Position numbers and translations under genes: made by a program | DNA from: a marine gamma proteobacterium HTCC2080 | Lineage (GTDB): Bacteria; Pseudomonadota; Gammaproteobacteria; Pseudomonadales; Halieaceae | Reading direction: 5' to 3' | Assembly: GCA_000169115.1 (NCBI GenBank) | Contig: AAVV01000005.1 | Coordinates: 124,001-188,000 of the forward strand | DNA: 64,000 bases | Notes under the pieces: generated by a model | The model's database searches: none | What the model saw: the letters and a program-made list of their open reading frames with translations, nothing else | What the model was told of the DNA's origin: nothing | Shown: positions 6,326-43,379 of the stretch, piece after piece | Layout: each line of letters starts with the position of its first letter | Numbering within the stretch: position 1 is the first letter of the stretch

Positions 6326-7090
6326 TTAGTCGCCGGAGCGCACAAGCGTCGCGGTATACATCCTAGGGCTATCACAGGAGACAACGGACCCGATCGTGTC
6401 TTGTTGCACTTTCCAGCCACCTTGGTTCACGTATTTTTCAGAGTTTTCGCCATAGGTGCTCAAATCTGAGACCCAGTTTGATATTTTCATCTGATAGCCA
6501 GCGTCCTGAGGGTTGCCGTGCCCCGGTAGATGATAGACGGTTACGCTGGGAACCTCCTGTTCATCGAGATAAGCGTTGTATTTCGCCTGAGCGGCCATCA
6601 GGTCTTCCATCTCCATGCCTTCACGAAATGTGCAGTCGCTAAAACTGGCATAACCTGAGGAGGATTCGCCGCCGCCACCACGAACAATGAGCGACGCGAA
6701 TTCCATGTGCGCGCTGCAGGTCCAAACCTCATTAAACTTAGCATTGAGCTCTGCGCCCTCGGTAAACCAAGCATCTAGGGTCTTACCCATGGCTTTAAAG
6801 TCGGGAGTAAAGCCAAACCAAAACGCAGTGCGCTCAAAATTAATGTCGGAACCGAATACGGGGGTCAAAACCCAGGCGTAGTAGTCGTTCATTTCTTTTT
6901 CGTCAGACCAATTGTTCCACTCGCCAACCACTGACATAAGGTCGGCAGGGGCTTTGCCTTCGTTCATTTCGCAGCCATACAGTTCAGTGCCCCCGAAGCC
7001 ACTGGGCATATGGTGGTCGGCCACTACGGGTTGTGTGTGAAGTACGCCTACAACTCCTAGAGCAAGCAGGGTTTTGAAGGTATTTTTCAT
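6326..7090 (-). CDS. Secreted protein of unknown function
   Basis: 254 residues beginning with a typical signal peptide (KNTFKTLLALGVVGVLHTQ, cleavage probably after VVA-D at about residue 25). The mature part is acidic, has several cysteines that could form disulfides (YGCEMNEG, WTCSAHM, FSDCTF, VVSCDSP), many tryptophans and two similar segments with W-x-x-W or aromatic clusters. I do not recognise a named domain. It is a single-gene unit with its own terminator. It is probably periplasmic or outside the cell. Real gene status is supported by the signal peptide, codon pattern and terminator. Confidence 0.75.
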   Translation of the reverse strand: MKNTFKTLLALGVVGVLHTQPVVADHHMPSGFGGTELYGCEMNEGKAPADLMSVVGEWNNWSDEKEMNDYYAWVLTPVFGSDINFERTAFWFGFTPDFKAMGKTLDAWFTEGAELNAKFNEVWTCSAHMEFASLIVRGGGGESSSGYASFSDCTFREGMEMEDLMAAQAKYNAYLDEQEVPSVTVYHLPGHGNPQDAGYQMKISNWVSDLSTYGENSEKYVNQGGWKVQQDTIGSVVSCDSPRMYTATLVRSGD

Positions 7091-31980: not shown

Positions 31981-32487
31981 ATGCGTAAAGCCCTGAAATT
32001 TTTGCATACCCTGGGCGGCGTTGGCCTGCTGGGAACTTTTATGACCTTAGTCATTGTTCTAGCGCTCTTGCCAGACCCCTTACAAGATATTCATGGCTAC
32101 GCAGCGCTGACTGAGCTTGTCGACCGATTGGCTCGCTGGGTTCTATTGCCGTCTCTTGCAATCACCCTAGTGTCCGGTTTGCTGTCTATTGGCGCGGTCA
32201 CAGCGTTTCACAGCGCCGGCTGGGCCTGGCTGAAATTAGCCACTGGAGTCGTAATGTTTGAAGGTACGCTGCTTGCCGTTCAAGGCCCCATTCAGCGGGA
32301 GGCGAATCTTACACGCCAGTTTTTAAACGGTGATCTTGAGGCGACTGTAATGGCGACTAGCTTTGACACCATTAGTTACTCGATTATTGTGTTGGGGAGT
32401 GTTGCTTTAGCCAACGTGGTTCTCGGAATTTGGCGCCCCAGGTTGGGCAGGCGCAAACTGGTATCAGCCCAAGTCGCGGAAGAGTAG
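31981..32487 (+). CDS. DUF2269-like integral membrane protein
   Basis: 168 residues with four hydrophobic stretches (around 12-32, 50-72, 82-100 and 128-150). The start RKALKFLHTLGGVGLLGTF looks like the DUF2269 family, whose function is unknown. A ribosome site (GAGGACGGAG) precedes the ATG. Its last 24 bases overlap the 3' end of the BLUF gene on the other strand (convergent). It follows the SDR gene. Confidence 0.7.
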   Translation: MRKALKFLHTLGGVGLLGTFMTLVIVLALLPDPLQDIHGYAALTELVDRLARWVLLPSLAITLVSGLLSIGAVTAFHSAGWAWLKLATGVVMFEGTLLAVQGPIQREANLTRQFLNGDLEATVMATSFDTISYSIIVLGSVALANVVLGIWRPRLGRRKLVSAQVAEE

Positions 32488-32943
32488 GGCGAGTCGTTCG
32501 CCGCGGCTCAGTGCCTTCAAAAACGCTCTGGGCTCCTCGTCACTGTCGAAAAAATTGGAGTAGCCTCTGAGCATTGATACGTCAATGCCATCGAGGTCTA
32601 AAAACCCCATTTGCCAGTTGCTGAATTCTCTTGCTTCAAGGGGCTCATCAAAAAGGACTTCCACACCTTCGTGCCGCTGGTCCCTCATAATATTGTTAAA
32701 CGTTTCCTGAACTCTGGCGCGGGACCCCTCGATCACCTGAAAAAATGATTGGTTTTTGTGCAACAGTAATCCTGAGATATTGCGGCTTTCGTTCAGCCCT
32801 CGGACTTCGGTGAGCAGGCTAATGAGGTCGGCGGCCTTCATGTCGCGAGTCTGTGTGCTGACGTAGGCGAGGTGGATGAGCTCGTCATCAGAAGTGCCTG
32901 AGACTTCGTTCTCTGGACGGATGTTTATGCTGTCGCTGCACAT
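32464..32943 (-). CDS. BLUF-domain blue-light sensor
   Basis: 159 residues from the ATG at 32943, which has GGAGG eight bases upstream; a GTG at 32958 is the alternative. A single BLUF domain fills residues 25 to about 125: LIHLAYVSTQTRDM contains the photoactive tyrosine, SGLLLHKNQSFFQVIEG the key glutamine, and FSNWQMGFLDLD the tryptophan/methionine segment. It binds FAD and would signal through protein contacts, having no attached output domain except a short C-terminal helix region. It is divergent from acsF with about 220 bases between; in Rhodobacter the BLUF protein AppA antagonises PpsR, and a ppsR gene is present 9 kb away. Confidence 0.92.
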   Translation of the reverse strand: MCSDSINIRPENEVSGTSDDELIHLAYVSTQTRDMKAADLISLLTEVRGLNESRNISGLLLHKNQSFFQVIEGSRARVQETFNNIMRDQRHEGVEVLFDEPLEAREFSNWQMGFLDLDGIDVSMLRGYSNFFDSDEEPRAFLKALSRGERLALLFRDLG

Positions 32944-33083
32944 GGGTGAAGCCTCCACAAAAATTGGATTTGACCCCGGCTTGGGATTAACCGTTGGTCA
33001 ACTGTCTTCCCCCCACCCGATTAAAGGCAGCAATTTCCCCCTTGAAGACACTACGCAAGTAAACTAAACTAGACAAGTCTTTT

Positions 33084-33107
33084 TGTAATAAAAAAGTGAC
33101 ATATAAT
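33084..33107 (+). promoter_or_regulatory. Probable PpsR operator and -10 box of acsF
   Basis: TGTAATAAAAAAGTGACA at 33084-33101 fits the PpsR/CrtJ palindrome TGT-N12-ACA exactly. It is followed immediately by TATAAT (33102-33107), a perfect -10 hexamer, 56 bases before the acsF start. A repressor bound here would cover the promoter. The core is nearly the same as the site before bchF. The BLUF gene lies on the other side, so the site could also act on it. Confidence 0.7.
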
Positions 33108-33162
33108 GTGGGAAGCAGCTTTTCTCACGCCATCGTGGCCTCGGGGGGCCAAAGGAGCGCAC

Positions 33163-34218
33163 ATGGCAACTACAACCGCAGTAAATGAATCGACGCAACA
33201 GGCGTTGGAGAACCGACTATTGGCGCCGAAATTCTATCGGACCGATTACAAAGCCATGAATACGTTAGATGTTTCGCCGGTGCGGCGAGAATGGGACGTG
33301 ATGATGGCGAATTTTGAGGAAGACAAAAATCGCGCGCACTTTAAGCAAAGTATCGAGTTTGATCCGGAATCACTCGATGTAGACATGGATCTCAAACGAG
33401 ACTTTCTTGATTTCCTGGTCAGCTCAATCACATCTGAATATTCAGGCTGTGTCTTGTATCAAGAGATTGAGAAGAATGTAGACAACCCAGATGTTTCCAA
33501 ACTAATGCGATATATGGCCAGGGACGAGTCGCGGCATGCTGGCTTTATAAACCGAGCACTCAAGCAGCTGGGTGTCGCGGTAGACCTTAGTGTTTTGAAG
33601 CAAACCAAGGAATACCATTATTTTCGCCCTAAGTTCATTTACTACGCTACATACCTCTCAGAAAAAATTGGGTATGCGCGTTACATAACGATTTATCGTC
33701 ATTTACAGCGCAACCCACAAAATCAGTTTCACCCCATTTTTAATTGGTTTGAACGTTGGTGTAATGATGAGTACGCCCACGGTGAGGCCTTCGCCTTGTT
33801 GATGCGCTCTGATCCGAAGCTACTGCGAGGTCATAACAAGCTGTGGATACGCTTTTTCCTACTGGCCGTTTATTCGACAATGTATGTGCGCGATCATTCT
33901 CGCCCGAAGTTGTATCAGGCGTTCGGTATGGACCCCACCAAGTTCGACTATCAGGTATTTGATATTACGAGCGAAATTTCTCAACAAGTATTTCCTATGA
34001 CGTTGAACACCGACGATCCTCGGTTTCGACGTGGTATGGAGCGCCTGCTATTCCTCAGTGAAAAAGCCGAGGGCTTGCGGGCCAAAGGTGGTCTTATTAA
34101 CAAGTGTCTCAGATTGGGTGTTATGGCCCAGTCAGGCCTCACCTTTGCGCGGCTGTACTGTTTGCCAACAAAGCCAAATACGCTACCCGACCAGGTTTGT
34201 ATGACTCCCGCCTGGTAG
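33163..34218 (+). CDS. acsF: Magnesium-protoporphyrin IX monomethyl ester oxidative cyclase, aerobic
   Basis: 351 residues from the ATG at 33163, preceded by AAAGGAG. The di-iron ligand motifs are visible: DESRHAGF (residues about 124-131) and CNDEYAHGEAF (about 203-213), with the first ligand in SSITSEYSG. It forms ring E of bacteriochlorophyll using molecular oxygen, consistent with an aerobic phototroph. A five-pair hairpin (TGGCC/GGCCA, 33136-33151) ends exactly where the ribosome site begins and might affect translation. It appears to be the only gene on its transcript, driven by the promoter above. Confidence 0.95.
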   Translation: MATTTAVNESTQQALENRLLAPKFYRTDYKAMNTLDVSPVRREWDVMMANFEEDKNRAHFKQSIEFDPESLDVDMDLKRDFLDFLVSSITSEYSGCVLYQEIEKNVDNPDVSKLMRYMARDESRHAGFINRALKQLGVAVDLSVLKQTKEYHYFRPKFIYYATYLSEKIGYARYITIYRHLQRNPQNQFHPIFNWFERWCNDEYAHGEAFALLMRSDPKLLRGHNKLWIRFFLLAVYSTMYVRDHSRPKLYQAFGMDPTKFDYQVFDITSEISQQVFPMTLNTDDPRFRRGMERLLFLSEKAEGLRAKGGLINKCLRLGVMAQSGLTFARLYCLPTKPNTLPDQVCMTPAW

Positions 34219-34340
34219 GCAGAGTATTGCTATCGAACGCATTATCATCGCTTATATCAGTGCAGCGGCCTTGCCTCGTTGATGGTTCGTTCGGTAATGA
34301 TGTTAAATCGCTTCAAAGCAAAACCGATTATCGGTAGCTA

Positions 34341-34369
34341 GAGGCCTGAGGCAGAATGCCTTAGGTCTC
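34341..34369 (+). terminator. Strong hairpin after acsF, possible terminator
   Basis: Two 13-base arms (34341-34353 and 34357-34369) pair along their whole length around a three-base loop, with two G-T pairs. No T-run follows, so intrinsic termination is uncertain; it may instead protect the acsF mRNA end. It lies 122 bases after the acsF stop. Confidence 0.45.
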
Positions 34370-35179
34370 AGATTGTTCATGCGCGGATCCCTTTCAGGGG
34401 ATTGTTATGCGGCTGCTGATTGGATTTGTGAGTGATCGGGTTTGTAAGCGATCGGAGCCGGTTCTTGCCTAAATTCTTGAAATCAATTCTGCACGCGCAT
34501 TGCGGCTTGGCCTGTGTGGACGCACCATGACGGTGGCATTCTCCATGCTGTAATTTTGCTGGGCTGGCACTGTCTTCGCTTGTCAATAGGTCTAACATTT
34601 ACGGATTATCCTGTTGCCTTGAGAGCATCGTCACAGCCCCGATGCACACATGTCCGGCGGCCCAAGATTTTGTGACTGTATTGCCGCGTCCTCTCCTTGG
34701 ATTGGGCTGCTCAAGCGGGAGTTACCGACACGGTTTTGTTAGTTTCCAACACTGACAAAGGACGCTGGTCGTTCCCATTTGTATCCTCCGCAACAAGTTG
34801 CGAACAACTTCAAGGGTGCCTGTCACGCTGAAAACTGGCAGCGTTTTGACAAACGCATTATAGTTAACCTGTTACCTAATTTTGGCCGATTGTCGGAAAC
34901 GTTAGGTTGGCAACAGGGTGCTTGTTAGTAGGATCTACGATAAAACCCTAGGTGCTGTCTCGGCAGCGCTCGCGGAGGAACAGTTGGCAGTGCGGGGCCT
35001 GGTGGCAAAAGGCGACTGCGGATTAGTAACATATAAAGCCACCGAGTCGCGTATGAATCAGGCCGCTGGGAGAACAGCGATCAACCCAGTGCCCTTGCCG
35101 GTCCGTCGGGTCTGGAGCAACAAGCCATTCTTACCGTACAAAAGTAGCACGTAGCGCAGATAGCGGAGATTAGTGTCCT
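34370..35179. other. Gene-free stretch with repeats before the flavoprotein gene
   Basis: About 810 bases without a convincing gene between acsF and the flavin hydroxylase. It holds a 16-base tandem repeat (TTTGTGAGTGATCGGG then TTTGTAAGCGATCGGA, 34425-34456), a small hairpin AAGTTG/CAACTT with a CGAA loop near 34795, and a nested stem-loop at 34868-34917. Short frames such as 34918-35154 have no recognisable content. The stretch may be debris of a past insertion. Confidence 0.5.
34868..34917 (+). other. Nested stem-loop element
   Basis: Outer arms CCTGTT (34868-34873) and AACAGG (34912-34917), then ACCTAA (34874-34879) with TTAGGT (34902-34907) after a four-base bulge, and an inner CCGA/TCGG hairpin (34886-34896). 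In total 16 base pairs form in 50 bases. It lies 262 bases before the flavoprotein gene. It could be an RNA leader element, an operator or a terminal repeat of a lost mobile element; the sequence alone does not decide. Confidence 0.4.
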
Positions 35180-37123
35180 ATGCAGTACCACCGGAATGGC
35201 TTCAACCCCGGTAACTACCAAATTCCCGATGAGGTTCGAAAGCCCTATCCTAATCCGCCGGTAACTGATCTGCCTGCCGTGGTTGATGTGCTTATCGTGG
35301 GTTGCGGTCCAGCGGGGCTGACCATGGCTAGGCAGATGGCTGAGTTCGCTGATATTTCTACCTGCATCGTTGATCTCGAGCCCGGACCGCTGCTGTTTGG
35401 ACGGGCCGATGGCATTTCCTGTCGAACCATAGAAATTATGGAGGCGTTCAACAGCAGCGAGATGGTGGTTAAAGAAACTTACCAACTGCGCCAGAATAGC
35501 TTCTGGGAACCCGACAGCGATAATTTTAAGAATATAAAGCGCAGCCACAAGATCTCCGATGCCCGAATCGGTCTGTCAGAATTCACCCACGGCATTGTCA
35601 ATCAGGCACGGCTGCACGAACTGTTGCTTGAGGGCATGAAGCACTCGGTTACCGGACTTGAGCCTCATTACAGCCGCAAATTGGTGAAGCTCGACGTTGA
35701 CTCCAACCTCACTCAGGACCTAGATGCCTATCCCATCACCGCGACCTTCGAGCGCAGCGACACCGAGCAGCAGGATAAGCAGGAAGTCATCAAGGCACGC
35801 TACGTGGTGGGTACCGACGGGGCTAGAAGCGTCGTGCGAAAGAGCCTTGGTATCGAACTTAAAGGTGATTCGGCGAATAAAACTTGGGGAGTTATGGACG
35901 TACTGGTAGTGACCGATTTCCCGGATATCCGCGTCAAAAGCTTCATTCAGTCGAAAGACCACGGTGCGGTGATGCTCATTCCCCGAGAAGGCGGCTACCT
36001 AGTCAGAATGTACGTAGAGCTCGATCTTTTGGAACAGGGCCAGCGCGCTGCCAACGTCAAGCTCACAGAGAAGGATCTCATTGCCAAAATGCAGCAGATC
36101 TACCATCCGTATACCGTTGACGTCAAAGAGGTCGCCTGGTGGTCGATCTATGAAGTGGGGCAGCGGGTGGCTGAGCGCTTCGATGACCGACCCCTTGATG
36201 CCCCGGAAAACCAGATTCCCCGAGCTTTTCTTGCCGGCGACGCCTGCCATACTCACAGCCCCAAGGGCGGCTGGGGTTTGAATACCTCTCTTCCAGATAC
36301 CTTTAATTTGGGCTGGAAGATGGCGGCAGTACTGCAGGGAAAGTGTCATCCCAAGCTATTGCAGACCTATGCGCCTGAAAGATGCAAAGTCGCCGAGCAG
36401 CTCATTGATGCCGACCGGCAACTGTCGCGCCTGGTTGCGACCCAGCCATCGGCGAAACAGCTGTCGACGGACCAACGCAAAACCGATACTGCCGATATCG
36501 AGGCATTTATGGCCCGGCAAAACGGCTTCATCGCCGGAACCGCGATCGGCTATTACCCGTCATACATCTGCAGAAGCCACGAGAATCAGGAACTGGCAAC
36601 CGGCTTAAATATTGGCCAGCGCTTCCACTCCGCTATTGCCGTTCGGGTGGCCGATGGGCGTCAGCAACATCTGGGGCATCTCGTAAAGGCGGATGGCCGT
36701 TGGCGCATCTTTATCTTCGGTAGTACCCAGAATCCCCGTGACGCGGTTTCCGATTCTCGCCAACTTATCGAATTTTTGATCAACGATCCCGCATCGCCTG
36801 TGGTCCGATATACCGCCCAGGATTCCGATATCGATTCAGTGATCGATGTGTACGGTATCTTCCAGCAACACGACCTTGCGATTGAGGACATACCCGATTT
36901 TCTGTGGCCTCCCGGAGGGAAATACGGACTCAGGGACTATGAGAAGGTTTTCTATGGGGAAAAGAATAATGATGTCTTCGATATGCGCGGTATAGACCGT
37001 TCTCGAGGTTGCATGGTGGTAGTACGTCCGGACCAGCACATTGCCACAATTCTGCCACTCACTGCCCACGCCGAGCTCGCGGCTTTCTTTGATGAGTTTC
37101 TGCTGGTACCCGACGAAACTTGA
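35180..37123 (+). CDS. Phenol 2-monooxygenase-type FAD hydroxylase
   Basis: 647 residues. The FAD-binding start VLIVGCGPAGLTMARQMAEF is at about residue 38, RADGISCRTIEIM near 78, the DG motif VGTDGARSVVRKSLGI near 212 and the GD motif LAGDACHTHSPKGGWGLNT near 350, followed by a C-terminal thioredoxin-like domain from about 460. This is the layout of phenol hydroxylase and 3-hydroxybenzoate 4-hydroxylase. The usual GQGMN segment reads GWGLN, which may change flavin movement or substrate. It uses NADPH and oxygen on an aromatic ring. No aromatic pathway neighbours exist; it sits inside the photosynthesis cluster, probably by transfer. Confidence 0.88.
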   Translation: MQYHRNGFNPGNYQIPDEVRKPYPNPPVTDLPAVVDVLIVGCGPAGLTMARQMAEFADISTCIVDLEPGPLLFGRADGISCRTIEIMEAFNSSEMVVKETYQLRQNSFWEPDSDNFKNIKRSHKISDARIGLSEFTHGIVNQARLHELLLEGMKHSVTGLEPHYSRKLVKLDVDSNLTQDLDAYPITATFERSDTEQQDKQEVIKARYVVGTDGARSVVRKSLGIELKGDSANKTWGVMDVLVVTDFPDIRVKSFIQSKDHGAVMLIPREGGYLVRMYVELDLLEQGQRAANVKLTEKDLIAKMQQIYHPYTVDVKEVAWWSIYEVGQRVAERFDDRPLDAPENQIPRAFLAGDACHTHSPKGGWGLNTSLPDTFNLGWKMAAVLQGKCHPKLLQTYAPERCKVAEQLIDADRQLSRLVATQPSAKQLSTDQRKTDTADIEAFMARQNGFIAGTAIGYYPSYICRSHENQELATGLNIGQRFHSAIAVRVADGRQQHLGHLVKADGRWRIFIFGSTQNPRDAVSDSRQLIEFLINDPASPVVRYTAQDSDIDSVIDVYGIFQQHDLAIEDIPDFLWPPGGKYGLRDYEKVFYGEKNNDVFDMRGIDRSRGCMVVVRPDQHIATILPLTAHAELAAFFDEFLLVPDET

Positions 37124-37222
37124 ATTCGCGGGAAGCGATAATCCACCAAAATGCAAGGCAGTAAGTTGATTAAGGGCGAATTCTACTGACTCAATGTGCG
37201 GCTTTTGCTGCGATAGGGCCCA

Positions 37223-37489
37223 CTAGATCTCGCTAACTGTGTGCCGGCGCCAGTATTTCCACAGACCAATTATTGAAGCCCCTATCCAGAAAACTTCAAT
37301 CACCAAGCTGGCAAGATTAAAGTTAAAGCATAGACTGAAAAAAAGAAAAACGGCGCCCACTAAATTCATCACATTGTAGCCGAGGCTTCTAGGGTCGATT
37401 CGTTCAAGCTGCAATAGATAATAGGCCACAATCACCATCAGTGTGCCAAGCATGCCGATAGCGTCAATGATGTTGTTATGCATAGCCAT
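37223..37489 (-). CDS. Small membrane protein of the CBU_0592 type
   Basis: 88 residues with three hydrophobic segments (IDAIGMLGTLMVIVAYYLLQ, MNLVGAVFLFFSLCF and SLVIEVFWIGASIIGLWKYW). The pattern GxxGxxxxxxAYxLLQ followed by a second segment with NLVGA and a third with EVFWIG is the common small inner-membrane family often labelled CBU_0592; its function is unknown. It lies between the flavin hydroxylase and the transposase remnant with no co-directional neighbour close by. Confidence 0.7.
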   Translation of the reverse strand: MAMHNNIIDAIGMLGTLMVIVAYYLLQLERIDPRSLGYNVMNLVGAVFLFFSLCFNFNLASLVIEVFWIGASIIGLWKYWRRHTVSEI

Positions 37490-37833
37490 TCACCCAAAGC
37501 GAGCTGATAAAACGAGTGCCTCAGTATAAGAAGTATCAGGGGAGTGTCGAGCACCATTGCCTGCTCTGGATTTGAGCGTGGGTCCCGAGATTGTTGACGC
37601 ACACTCACACATTGTTTGCCGCCAGTACCTGCGCTCAGTGGCGTCACTGTAAGTTCTACCGGTCACTCTCTCTTAGATGCTAAATCCGAGGCCAGCAACG
37701 CGACATTAGTGAAGTCTTCTCAGGTGTGCTTGCTGATTGCGTGTGGTTGAGCGGAAGCCCTTGCCAGCAAAAACCCGCGACGTCTCACCTGGCACCGGCA
37801 ATGGTGCTTCCACTAGCCCGAGTAAAGTGGTGA

Positions 37834-37977
37834 TCAGCACCTAATCGTTTTGGCCCACGCGTTTATGTCGAGTGTCTCTTGCTTCTCAGTGCAAACGATA
37901 ATGCTGACTGAGCCTCTGCATTGGTTACAGCTTCTGATATCGATGTTGTCAGCCTGTCTTGAGGGGTTGATACACCT
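37834..37977 (-). pseudogene. Transposase C-terminal remnant, IS91-like
   Basis: A 47-codon open stretch on the minus strand, bounded by stops, reads NIDIRSCNQCRGSVSIIVC and then TEKQETLDINAWAKTI. This closely resembles the C-terminal zinc-type end of Y2/IS91-type transposases, which commonly read (F)NIDIxxCxxCGGxxxIIAxIEDPxVIxxIL. No upstream part of the gene is left, so it is a decayed fragment. It marks past mobile-element activity between the flavin hydroxylase and bchP. The rest of 37490-37989 shows no gene. Confidence 0.5.
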
Positions 37978-37989
37978 CTAATTCTGATC

Positions 37990-38268
37990 TTAGGTACGCC
38001 CTTGTGGGCGGTATCGTAAGGTGAGATCCGTTAGATGGGCGAGTAGTGAGGCGCTTAGACATAGTGCTAACCAGTACCACGCGGCCTGGGATAGCGCTAG
38101 GCGGATGCCCAGCATGAGGGCGGCCCCAGAAATAAGATTGGGTATGAGGGTCGCAGGGCTTGGTCTAGCCTTGTTGTGGCGATGGGCCACAACGATAACG
38201 ATGCCCTCGATAACGATCAAGCAGAGGATACCGTCGAGAAGCCTTCCCGATATCAGCAGAGCCTCCAT
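37990..38268 (-). CDS. Small membrane protein downstream of bchP
   Basis: 92 residues with about three membrane segments (LLDGILCLIVIEGIVIVVAH, NLISGAALMLGIRLALS and WYWLALCLSASLLAHLTDL). The ATG is three bases after the bchP stop, so it is the last gene of the bchG-pucC-bchP message. No family is recognised. The position suggests a helper role in pigment or light-harvesting assembly, but a fortuitous neighbour is possible. Confidence 0.65.
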   Translation of the reverse strand: MEALLISGRLLDGILCLIVIEGIVIVVAHRHNKARPSPATLIPNLISGAALMLGIRLALSQAAWYWLALCLSASLLAHLTDLTLRYRPQGRT

Positions 38269-38271
38269 CGC

Positions 38272-41775: not shown

Positions 41776-41793
41776 CGTCAAACTTTATTTACA
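41776..41793 (-). promoter_or_regulatory. Candidate PpsR operator before bchG
   Basis: On the minus strand the sequence is TGTAAATAAAGTTTGACG: TGT, twelve bases, then ACG instead of ACA. It shares the TGTAA start and the TTGAC end with the sites before acsF and bchF. Its TTGACG could serve as the -35 box of bchG, with a weak -10 about 16-17 bases on. It overlaps one arm of an inverted repeat TTATTTAC-N9-GTAAATAA (41786-41810). Confidence 0.5.
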
Positions 41794-41815
41794 CATTATG
41801 CGTAAATAATATTGG

Positions 41816-43204
41816 TCAAATTGGGTCGTCAGAGCCAGACTCACCAATACCGTAGCGGCGCAGTTTGGTGTAAAGGCTCTGGCGGCTTAGACCTAAAATT
41901 TCGGCGGCAGAGGCGCGGTTATCACGAGTCAGTTTAAGCGCAGCTTCTATACACAGTGCTTCAATAACATCGGTGGATTCGCGAACGAGTTCTTTGAGTG
42001 GGTGGCGACCCACACGTTCGGTGATTTGCTCTATTGAGCGCGGCAGTCGCTCGGTAAGGGGGTGGTCGGCCGTCAGGCGGCGACTAATATCTCGAATGAA
42101 GAAGACAATTTTTGGGTTATCGCCTCGCTGAACTGTCGCAGCTGAAATTTCAATCTCTGACGTCGCTCCGACACTGTTCTTAAGCACCGAGGCATACAGT
42201 TTAATGGGGCGATCCTGTTTGAGGTTGTTTAATATGACGGTCAGATCGACGGTCGAGCGCCCAATCCAGTTGTCGAGAGTTCTTCCAGTGACTTGATCGG
42301 GTGCAGATACGGCAATCCATTCAAGAAAAATTGAATTGACGTGTTCGATGCGCCCGTCACTGTCAACCTGAACAATCGCGTCTGGAGCGAGTTCAAACGT
42401 ATCTGCGAAATGCATACCTTGCAGGTTGCCGTCTTCGCCAGCGTTTGAGAGCCGGATCAAATAGCGAGATTCTGAGTTTTGACGTTGGAAGCTCACCAAG
42501 ATATCGCTGCCGTGGGGGACATTAGGCAGGACGATGCGCCGCTGGCTAGTTGCTCCCGTCTCTCTGGCTGAATCGAGCAGGCTTTGAATTTCTGTAGAGT
42601 TGAGAGGCAGGGGTCGCCCGATAATGCTTTGGCCCTCGGCGCTTAACATCGCGTTGGCCTGGGAGTTTGCTTCGAGCACCCGGCCAGTTGCCTCATCGAC
42701 CACGAGGATGCCGTCACTAGTTAGCTCCAACAGGCGGCGGTACCGATTTTCCATTTGGCGAAGCGCCCAATAGTCCTGCTCCATTGCGTGCTGGGCGTTA
42801 AGAACTTGTTGTCTTAGGTCGCTCACCACTCTCAGATCCCGACCTACTGCGATCACGCCTTCACCGTCTGCCGGTTGAATGAGTCTAAAACTCATAGGCA
42901 ACTCATCATTTGAGTCCGAGGCGCAGATGTTCAAATCGACACGATTTGGTGTGTTGGGAGTACGAGTAGCCGCATCTAGGGCGTTTTTTGCGCGCTCTTT
43001 GTGCTCTTCAATACAGAGTTCATGCCAGCGCTGCCCGCGCCATGGAATCCGCATGAGGTCGGTAAGTTCCGCATTGGTAATGGCTACGTCAAGGCAGAAA
43101 CCTTCGGCGTCTAGATGTAATTGCACGTCTGCTACGGCTTCTAGCACCGAGGCGACAGCAGATGGGTCGAGTTTCTTTAGCAACACCTGTTCCTTTGTCA
43201 GCAT
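41816..43204 (-). CDS. ppsR: PpsR/CrtJ-type photosynthesis repressor
   Basis: 462 residues from the ATG at 43204; a GTG at 43243 is the alternative, and neither has a clear ribosome site. An N-terminal domain (DVQLHLDAEGFCLDV), two PAS domains (LELTSDGILVVDEATGRVLEAN; FELAPDAIVQVDSDGRIEHVN) and a C-terminal Fis-type helix-turn-helix (NRASAAEILGLSRQSLYTKLRRYGIG) are visible in that order. A cysteine just before the HTH (IEALCIEAALKL) sits where the redox-active C-terminal cysteine of Rhodobacter PpsR lies, as I recall it. It represses pigment genes under oxygen or light; operator sites near acsF, bchF and bchG fit. Confidence 0.92.
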   Translation of the reverse strand: MLTKEQVLLKKLDPSAVASVLEAVADVQLHLDAEGFCLDVAITNAELTDLMRIPWRGQRWHELCIEEHKERAKNALDAATRTPNTPNRVDLNICASDSNDELPMSFRLIQPADGEGVIAVGRDLRVVSDLRQQVLNAQHAMEQDYWALRQMENRYRRLLELTSDGILVVDEATGRVLEANSQANAMLSAEGQSIIGRPLPLNSTEIQSLLDSARETGATSQRRIVLPNVPHGSDILVSFQRQNSESRYLIRLSNAGEDGNLQGMHFADTFELAPDAIVQVDSDGRIEHVNSIFLEWIAVSAPDQVTGRTLDNWIGRSTVDLTVILNNLKQDRPIKLYASVLKNSVGATSEIEISAATVQRGDNPKIVFFIRDISRRLTADHPLTERLPRSIEQITERVGRHPLKELVRESTDVIEALCIEAALKLTRDNRASAAEILGLSRQSLYTKLRRYGIGESGSDDPI

Positions 43205-43302
43205 TGATTGGGTAACTAATCCGATAGTTTGCGCTACCGGCACGCGAAATTTAAGCGAGGTTTACACTAGCGGACACAAAAACGCACCTAAAGTGGACAT
43301 AT

Positions 43303-43324: not shown

Positions 43325-43357
43325 GCCCTGTTACGTCACTTTTTTTAGCCTTATATC

Positions 43358-43379
43358 GGTGTAATAAGAAGTTGACACC
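43358..43379 (+). promoter_or_regulatory. Probable PpsR operator and -35 box of the bchF operon
   Basis: TGTAATAAGAAGTTGACA (43360-43377) is an exact TGT-N12-ACA site; the palindrome extends to GGTGT and ACACC. Its right arm contains TTGACA (43372-43377), a perfect -35 hexamer, with GATAAC sixteen bases on as a possible -10. Repressor binding would block the promoter of the long bchF-to-puhE operon. It differs from the acsF site at only three of eighteen positions. Confidence 0.72.

Follow-up and report, generated by a model that had tools for sequence, protein, structure and literature searches.

Control of photosynthesis genes by a BLUF sensor paired with the repressor PpsR is known from Rhodobacter sphaeroides, where the sensor, AppA, docks on PpsR via its SCHIC domain (PMC4477167). 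The Halieaceae (OM60/NOR5) are gammaproteobacteria abundant in coastal seas (PMC10100682), and their phototrophs cut pigment synthesis in blue light. In particular, blue light lowers the pigment of Congregibacter litoralis, in which no appA was found, and it has been proposed that a single-domain BLUF protein encoded near ppsR modulates PpsR in this species (Spring 2009, PMC2654016). The same work described 15 putative PpsR sites in C. litoralis, 12 of them arranged in tandem 7 or 8 bp apart, with the pattern TGTcaN8tgACA. The idea of a single-domain BLUF protein acting on PpsR was later restated (Spring 2013, PMC3666943). The pigment of two relatives, Luminiphilus syltensis and Pseudohaliea rubra, likewise falls in blue light; green light represses it too, and oxidative stress has been offered as another cause (PMC3666943). 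The position of acsF near a BLUF gene in this clade was reported from a study of strains KT71 and HTCC2080 (Zheng 2011, PMC3176799). Both the acsF/BLUF layout and the BLUF-PpsR idea are therefore already published (PMC2654016, PMC3666943, PMC3176799), and no experimental test of the proposal was found among the matches listed in the literature searched.

The locus described here, from HTCC2080, belongs to the same bacterial group as that of C. litoralis KT71 (BLUF gene KT71_19323), and in both the BLUF gene lies near ppsR or acsF (PMC2654016, PMC3176799). It shares with the AppA-PpsR system the combination of a BLUF sensor and a PpsR repressor of photosynthesis genes; unlike AppA, its sensor consists of a BLUF domain and a short tail. 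In Dinoroseobacter shibae, the lone blue-light receptor LdaP antirepresses PpsR in the dark (PMC10890935); LdaP differs in having a LOV rather than a BLUF domain, and the locus number of its gene, Dshi_1135, is remote from those of the cluster (Dshi_3501-3547). BlsA of Acinetobacter is a short BLUF protein that binds and antagonises transcriptional repressors, but its targets are Fur and AcoN (PMC6712483). Relative to the text of the two papers on the C. litoralis and HTCC2080 loci (PMC2654016, PMC3176799), their supplementary site tables apart, the present analysis adds a putative tandem operator that is shared by the two genes and lies across the likely acsF promoter, a survey of the gene pair throughout the clade, a conserved BLUF tail, and an informative exception, locus L190.

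The window analysed is a stretch of 64,000 nucleotides from a host genome of 3,576,081 bases. At its left end, the photosynthesis gene cluster of this genome comprises the BLUF gene (reverse strand), acsF and a flavin monooxygenase gene (both forward), and bchP, pucC, bchG and ppsR (all reverse), followed by bchF, N, B, H, L, M and puhA (all forward). A preliminary description had recognised a 159-residue BLUF protein whose gene shares its upstream region with acsF and lies about 9 kb from ppsR, and this layout was borne out by the family matches and the start sites (Table 1). The BLUF open reading frame (32464-32958, reverse) encodes 164 amino acids, with the PF04940 match over frame residues 27-118; an ATG at 32943, with GGAGG 8 bases upstream, gives the 159-residue protein. 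For acsF, the ATG at 33163 behind GGAG is a likelier start than position 33106. The two genes stand head to head across an intergenic gap of 204 bp, and ppsR lies 8.9 kb from the BLUF frame.

Table 1. Features of the acsF/BLUF locus and of the neighbouring cluster genes (window positions)
Feature	Position	Strand	Evidence
Single-domain BLUF protein, 159 aa	32464..32943	-	PF04940, 99 bits (cut-off 25)
Conserved C-terminal tail of BLUF, residues 138-159; clade consensus LSRGKRLALMFR, here LSRGERLALLFR	32467..32532	-	column entropy
Likely acsF promoter: TTGAAG (33042-33047), 17 bp, TAAACT (33065-33070)	33042..33070	+	conserved pair in gap comparison
Putative operator site 1, AGT-N12-ACA, covering the acsF -10-like hexamer	33058..33075	+	21.0 bits, matrix scan
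Putative operator site 2, TGT-N12-ACA, 8 bp after site 1	33084..33101	+	tandem score 30.0; alone only 9.0 bits
acsF, aerobic Mg-protoporphyrin monomethyl ester cyclase	33163..34218	+	TIGR02029, 581 bits (cut-off 192.5)
Putative tandem operator between bchG and ppsR: 41776-41793, 41801-41818, 7-bp gap	41776..41818	-	score 24.6, second of 464 kb
ppsR (crtJ), photosynthesis repressor	41816..43243	-	TIGR02040, 681 bits (cut-off 275.4)
Putative tandem operator before bchF: 43334-43351, 43360-43377, 8-bp gap	43334..43377	+	score 17.2, third of 464 kb

Two neighbouring genes deserve mention. A PRK08294-type phenol 2-monooxygenase-like flavoprotein is encoded at 35180-37123 (forward), in the interval between acsF and bchP (window 34219-38271). 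The distance from acsF to ppsR is 7.7 kb here; of the 28 other genomes that have both genes on one contig, 27 show 3.9-4.8 kb, so the flavoprotein gene looks like an insertion into the cluster of this strain. On the other side, a 168-residue protein (31981-32487) with a weak, sub-threshold UPF0093 match is encoded convergently with the BLUF frame, their ends overlapping; it adjoins many, but not all, of the acsF-linked BLUF genes.

In BLUF domains, a tyrosine and a glutamine are photoactive, and asparagine, tryptophan and methionine residues lie in the flavin pocket. Not only are the two photoactive residues intact, as had been noted from the single sequence, but Y27, N51, Q69, W110 and M112 are all invariant in 54 of 54 full-length acsF-linked homologues (column counts use 54 of the 56 linked homologues, leaving out the fragment in G076 and the frameshifted gene in G110). 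From the domain start to the stop, the protein measures 138 residues in 54 of the 56. Residues 138-159 form a conserved tail: its mean column entropy among linked homologues is 0.95 bits, versus 1.34 for the BLUF domain, and close to the 0.86 bits of the domain's best-conserved run of 22 columns. In 16 unlinked paralogues, taken as one set, the order is reversed, with 1.02 for the tail and 0.64 for the domain. A similar tail pattern occurs in L192 and L195, relatives seen outside photosynthesis clusters, and the tail alone is thus no PpsR signature. The best solved-structure match of the BLUF profile is 6w6z, a 156-residue BLUF chain that we take to be BlsA. For none of the 23 matched chains does the alignment extend beyond profile position 128 (of 138), and the tail end therefore lacks structural cover.

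An AppA-type C-terminal SCHIC (haem/B12) domain and cysteine-rich end were not found in the protein: a domain search of its 159 residues gives PF04940 only, and there is a single cysteine, in keeping with the earlier statement that it has no haem-binding or cysteine-rich output part. A split AppA, in which the BLUF protein would work with a separate SCHIC/B12 protein, was considered and tentatively set aside. The genome has three PF02310 proteins; two look metabolic, one resembling the partner of a corrinoid methyltransferase and the other being of MetH type, and the third is L238, a 719-aa frame.

The gene pair is a stable feature of the family. In a sample of 140 Halieaceae genomes, 61 have some acsF match and 57 have one over the curated cut-off; with the fragment in G072 these make up 58 acsF-bearing genomes, the weak sub-cut-off matches in G028, G073 and G088 being left out. 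A BLUF gene is divergent from acsF within 1.5 kb in 56 of the 58. In the other two it could not appear, because the contig ends 238 bp before acsF (G071) or inside it (G082); hence no acsF genome of the sample in which the pair could be seen lacks it (56/56). In G088, a linked BLUF gene accompanies a scrap of acsF at a contig end (L137), and this genome is counted among 57 linked-BLUF genomes. The preliminary description had named absence of the pair from OM60/NOR5 relatives as a reason to abandon its proposal, and its presence there answers that doubt. A scan of named relatives, one genome per species (80 of 106 kept), found acsF beside BLUF in 54 of the 55 closest loci (L137-L191), including those of L. 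syltensis and P. rubra, although these loci are not independent of the family sample since many of the contigs match in length. Outside the family, no BLUF gene lies within 1.5 kb of acsF in any of the four other acsF genomes of a class sample of 369, three of which have BLUF genes elsewhere; the notion that the pairing is a general feature of phototrophs was dropped on this count (0/4).

The linked BLUF proteins also group together. In a tree of 116 BLUF domains, for which 22 of the 80 named loci were used, 55 linked sequences fall into one clade (support 100/99), which also takes in five sequences from beyond the family sample (L164, L165, L182, L189 and L190), and 39 paralogues fall outside it. 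Identity of linked BLUF proteins to that of the window ranges from 41 to 93% (G057, with one unknown residue, was left out of this alignment). The truncated paralogue L004 (G000:C19:248251-248403) was omitted from the tree. It is a fourth BLUF match in the host genome, covers profile positions 43-92 only and lacks the half bearing the photoactive tyrosine; since it resembles the intact paralogue L003, it may be a decayed copy.

The region shared by the two genes had been described as holding a PpsR-type operator in the form of a TGT-N12-ACA site abutting a perfect TATAAT. A PpsR-type operator sequence is there, but the TGT-N12-ACA site turns out to be only the second half of a tandem (site 2 in Table 1). 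An exact TGT-N12-ACA is expected about 0.05 times in a 204-bp gap; the whole window holds 9 versus about 14 expected, so that a single such motif is weak evidence. Comparison across homologous gaps makes the motif evidence strong: the exact motif occurs in 24 of 56 gaps, whereas 100 Markov resamplings gave 3.8 on average and never more than 8 (one of the 24, in G100, lies away from the operator). Nine of the 56 gaps combine an exact site with another at a distance of 7-8 bp that may have one mismatch, versus 0.08 in resampling. Subgroup alignments and the individual sites of all 56 gaps reveal that two 18-base sites in tandem, with 6-8 bp between them, are conserved. The exact motif misses over half of the gaps and was given up for a matrix, which does better.

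The matrix was built from 97 sites of 50 genomes, with the window genome and five near relatives held out, and was applied to 464 kb, that is, the window plus 400 kb of control sequence from the same genome (20 stretches from 4 of 25 contigs, without the part of the cluster that continues past the window edge). Site 1 is the best single site of the 464 kb, the next scoring 15.8 bits. Scoring of single sites was nevertheless rejected: 5 sites of at least 12 bits lie in the window versus 1.9 expected, some of them inside genes outside the regulon. As this enrichment is small and site 2 scores low by itself, only the tandem discriminates. The tandem in the acsF-BLUF gap scores highest of the 464 kb, versus a control maximum of 16.9 (L221:7216, between ORFs read as ATP-grasp-like and RND-type proteins). 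In the six held-out genomes the gap tandem scores 25-31, versus a maximum of 16.4 in 40 resampling rounds; the gap scores of the other 50 of 56 genomes are not independent, since those genomes trained the matrix. Three of the 56 gaps scored under 12 because the 6-bp spacings of one subgroup fall outside the 25/26-bp scan. The conserved divergent region is thus predicted to carry a tandem PpsR-type operator, the first half of which lies over an acsF -10-like hexamer, and bchG and, less strongly, bchF are preceded by putative operators of the same tandem type; that before bchF is marginal, being barely over the control maximum.

A tandem TGT-N12-ACA-like operator overlapping a promoter, the arrangement expected of the PpsR/CrtJ regulon, was found at 33058/33084. 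No consensus promoter was recognised in the 204-bp gap for acsF or for BLUF, TTGAAG-17-TAAACT being below threshold. Comparison of the gaps nevertheless points to that pair: in 54 of 56 gaps, site 1 reads TAnnnT from its position 8 to 13, and a TTG-type -35 element stands 16-18 bp upstream (mean hexamer matches 4.4 and 4.0 of 6, taken as the best of three spacings, without a control run). A repressor on site 1 would cover the acsF -10-like hexamer. The TATAAT at 33102-33107, right after site 2, is present as described but looks unconserved, being common only to the window genome and G108 among the 10 genomes of the subgroup alignment; it was rejected as the acsF promoter for this reason and because no promoter was recognised there by consensus.

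The reading preferred here, to which an even chance is given, is that, in aerobic phototrophs of the gammaproteobacteria, the pair feeds light signals into the PpsR regulon, with the BLUF protein as a light-labile antirepressor of PpsR and its own gene repressed by PpsR. As in the known families, PpsR would bind the tandem and block acsF. The dark-state BLUF protein would bind PpsR, perhaps through its conserved tail, and lift repression; blue light would end this binding and hence antirepression, so that the pigment genes would be shut off in the light, as reported for relatives. Moreover, should the BLUF gene be repressed by the same operator, antirepressor and repressor would form a double-negative, self-reinforcing loop. 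Support comes from the pair in 56 of 58 genomes, from the rank of its tandem, and from the placement of the next two tandems in the same cluster; the single BLUF clade, the conserved tail and a second PpsR near BLUF in L164 and L190 also count in favour, as do the blue-light response of L. syltensis and P. rubra, in both of which the pair occurs, and the tandem kept in front of BLUF in L190. By analogy, LdaP and BlsA may be regarded as precedents for a lone receptor and a short BLUF protein that act on repressors (PMC10890935, PMC6712483). Against the preferred reading, the SCHIC domain that AppA uses for PpsR (PMC4477167) is absent from the BLUF protein, and the green-light repression reported for L. 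syltensis and P. rubra (PMC3666943) is unexplained by a BLUF sensor alone. The locus is real, conserved and well placed, and the predicted mechanism is plausible.

A latching light switch is possible, though doubtful. In such a switch, the minimal BLUF antirepressor would dock on PpsR by its tail instead of a SCHIC domain, and its own gene would be repressed by PpsR; in the dark, a little BLUF protein would free its own promoter and lock the photosynthesis regulon on, and blue light would collapse the loop. Since the cassette is kept beside the oxygen-dependent cyclase gene (56/56), signals for light and for oxygen could converge on a single divergent promoter.

The link of the pair to ppsR is looser than the pair itself. 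Among the 56 pair genomes, ppsR is on the acsF contig in 29 and on another contig in 26, and one genome gave no ppsR match. Nine genomes lack ppsR over the 31-187 kb of contig that follow acsF downstream, and BLUF still stands beside acsF; ppsR is on another contig in eight of these, and none was found in G066. BLUF and acsF thus stay together even where ppsR is elsewhere, and this apparently tighter tie to acsF speaks against the preferred reading. It favours instead a BLUF protein that belongs to the PpsR regulon and acts on some other partner (a different regulator, or an enzyme of second-messenger or pigment metabolism), as do the several partners used by BlsA (PMC6712483) and the L192 relative, whose gene lies between those of a MerR-type B12-binding regulator and a CheB-CheR-PAS-GGDEF-EAL protein. 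However, no other conserved regulator was seen beside the pair when 13 window proteins were traced, and linked BLUF and ppsR do occur together: ppsR is over the cut-off in 55 of 57 linked-BLUF genomes, and a linked BLUF is present in 55 of 59 ppsR genomes. Such co-occurrence is expected anyway, because both genes belong to the photosynthesis cluster. The outlying clusters L164 and L190 appear more telling, each genome having two PpsR proteins over the cut-off, one of them near BLUF. On balance, a partner other than PpsR is considered rather unlikely.

Control of the sensor gene by the repressor, which the preliminary description had suggested, is only hinted at. Upstream of BLUF, the operator occupies positions 115-158 bp from the start codon; it overlaps the conserved acsF promoter-like pair. 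This overlap, the lack of a recognised BLUF promoter in the gap, and the four acsF genomes of the class sample without a BLUF gene within 1.5 kb agree with an operator that serves acsF only, BLUF having remained at the cluster edge by descent with no functional link to acsF or PpsR. Set against this are the survival of the pair where ppsR is elsewhere and across 41-93% BLUF identity, and the one direct hint, L190. In that 12.4-kb locus no acsF was found; BLUF faces a haem oxygenase gene, near those of a bacteriophytochrome and PpsR, and a tandem still stands in front of BLUF (score 22.5, its halves being the two best sites of the locus). The L190 operator, a single case, may serve the haem oxygenase instead. 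An operator for acsF alone is judged improbable. Binding of the tandem by some other regulator than PpsR, one whose AT-rich palindrome is similar, as half-sites that are often AGT or GGT rather than TGT and spacings of 6 to 8 bp might suggest, is very improbable, given that the same tandem precedes bchG and bchF, that Rubrivivax PpsR binds degenerate half-sites (PMC4452267), and that the putative PpsR sites of C. litoralis have the same tandem form (PMC2654016).

If the preferred reading is true, one small domain suffices for an antirepressor, and light sensing can be subject to its own feedback. Three features, namely the tandem operator, the conserved BLUF tail and the L190 exception, sharpen the 2009 proposal into bench-ready questions: whether PpsR binds at 33058-33101, whether the tail docks on PpsR, and whether PpsR controls the BLUF gene.

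Three outlying loci show further arrangements. L190 is a cluster from a gammaproteobacterial MAG in which genes for PpsR, a phytochrome-type protein, haem oxygenase and BLUF stand in a row, which places red- and blue-light receptors near one repressor. In the 12 kb of L192 (Ca. Thiodiazotropha), none of the 13 query proteins matches except BLUF, and no such tandem precedes the BLUF relative (7.8). In L165, BLUF lies between acsF, for the oxygen-dependent cyclase, and bchE, for the oxygen-independent one, a layout that was discarded as a general one since the L165 bchE is without match in the other 54 loci. A 110-residue frame near the L165 BLUF matches the C-terminal end of PpsR, and bchE has a strong operator-like site upstream (19.7 bits at 6535).
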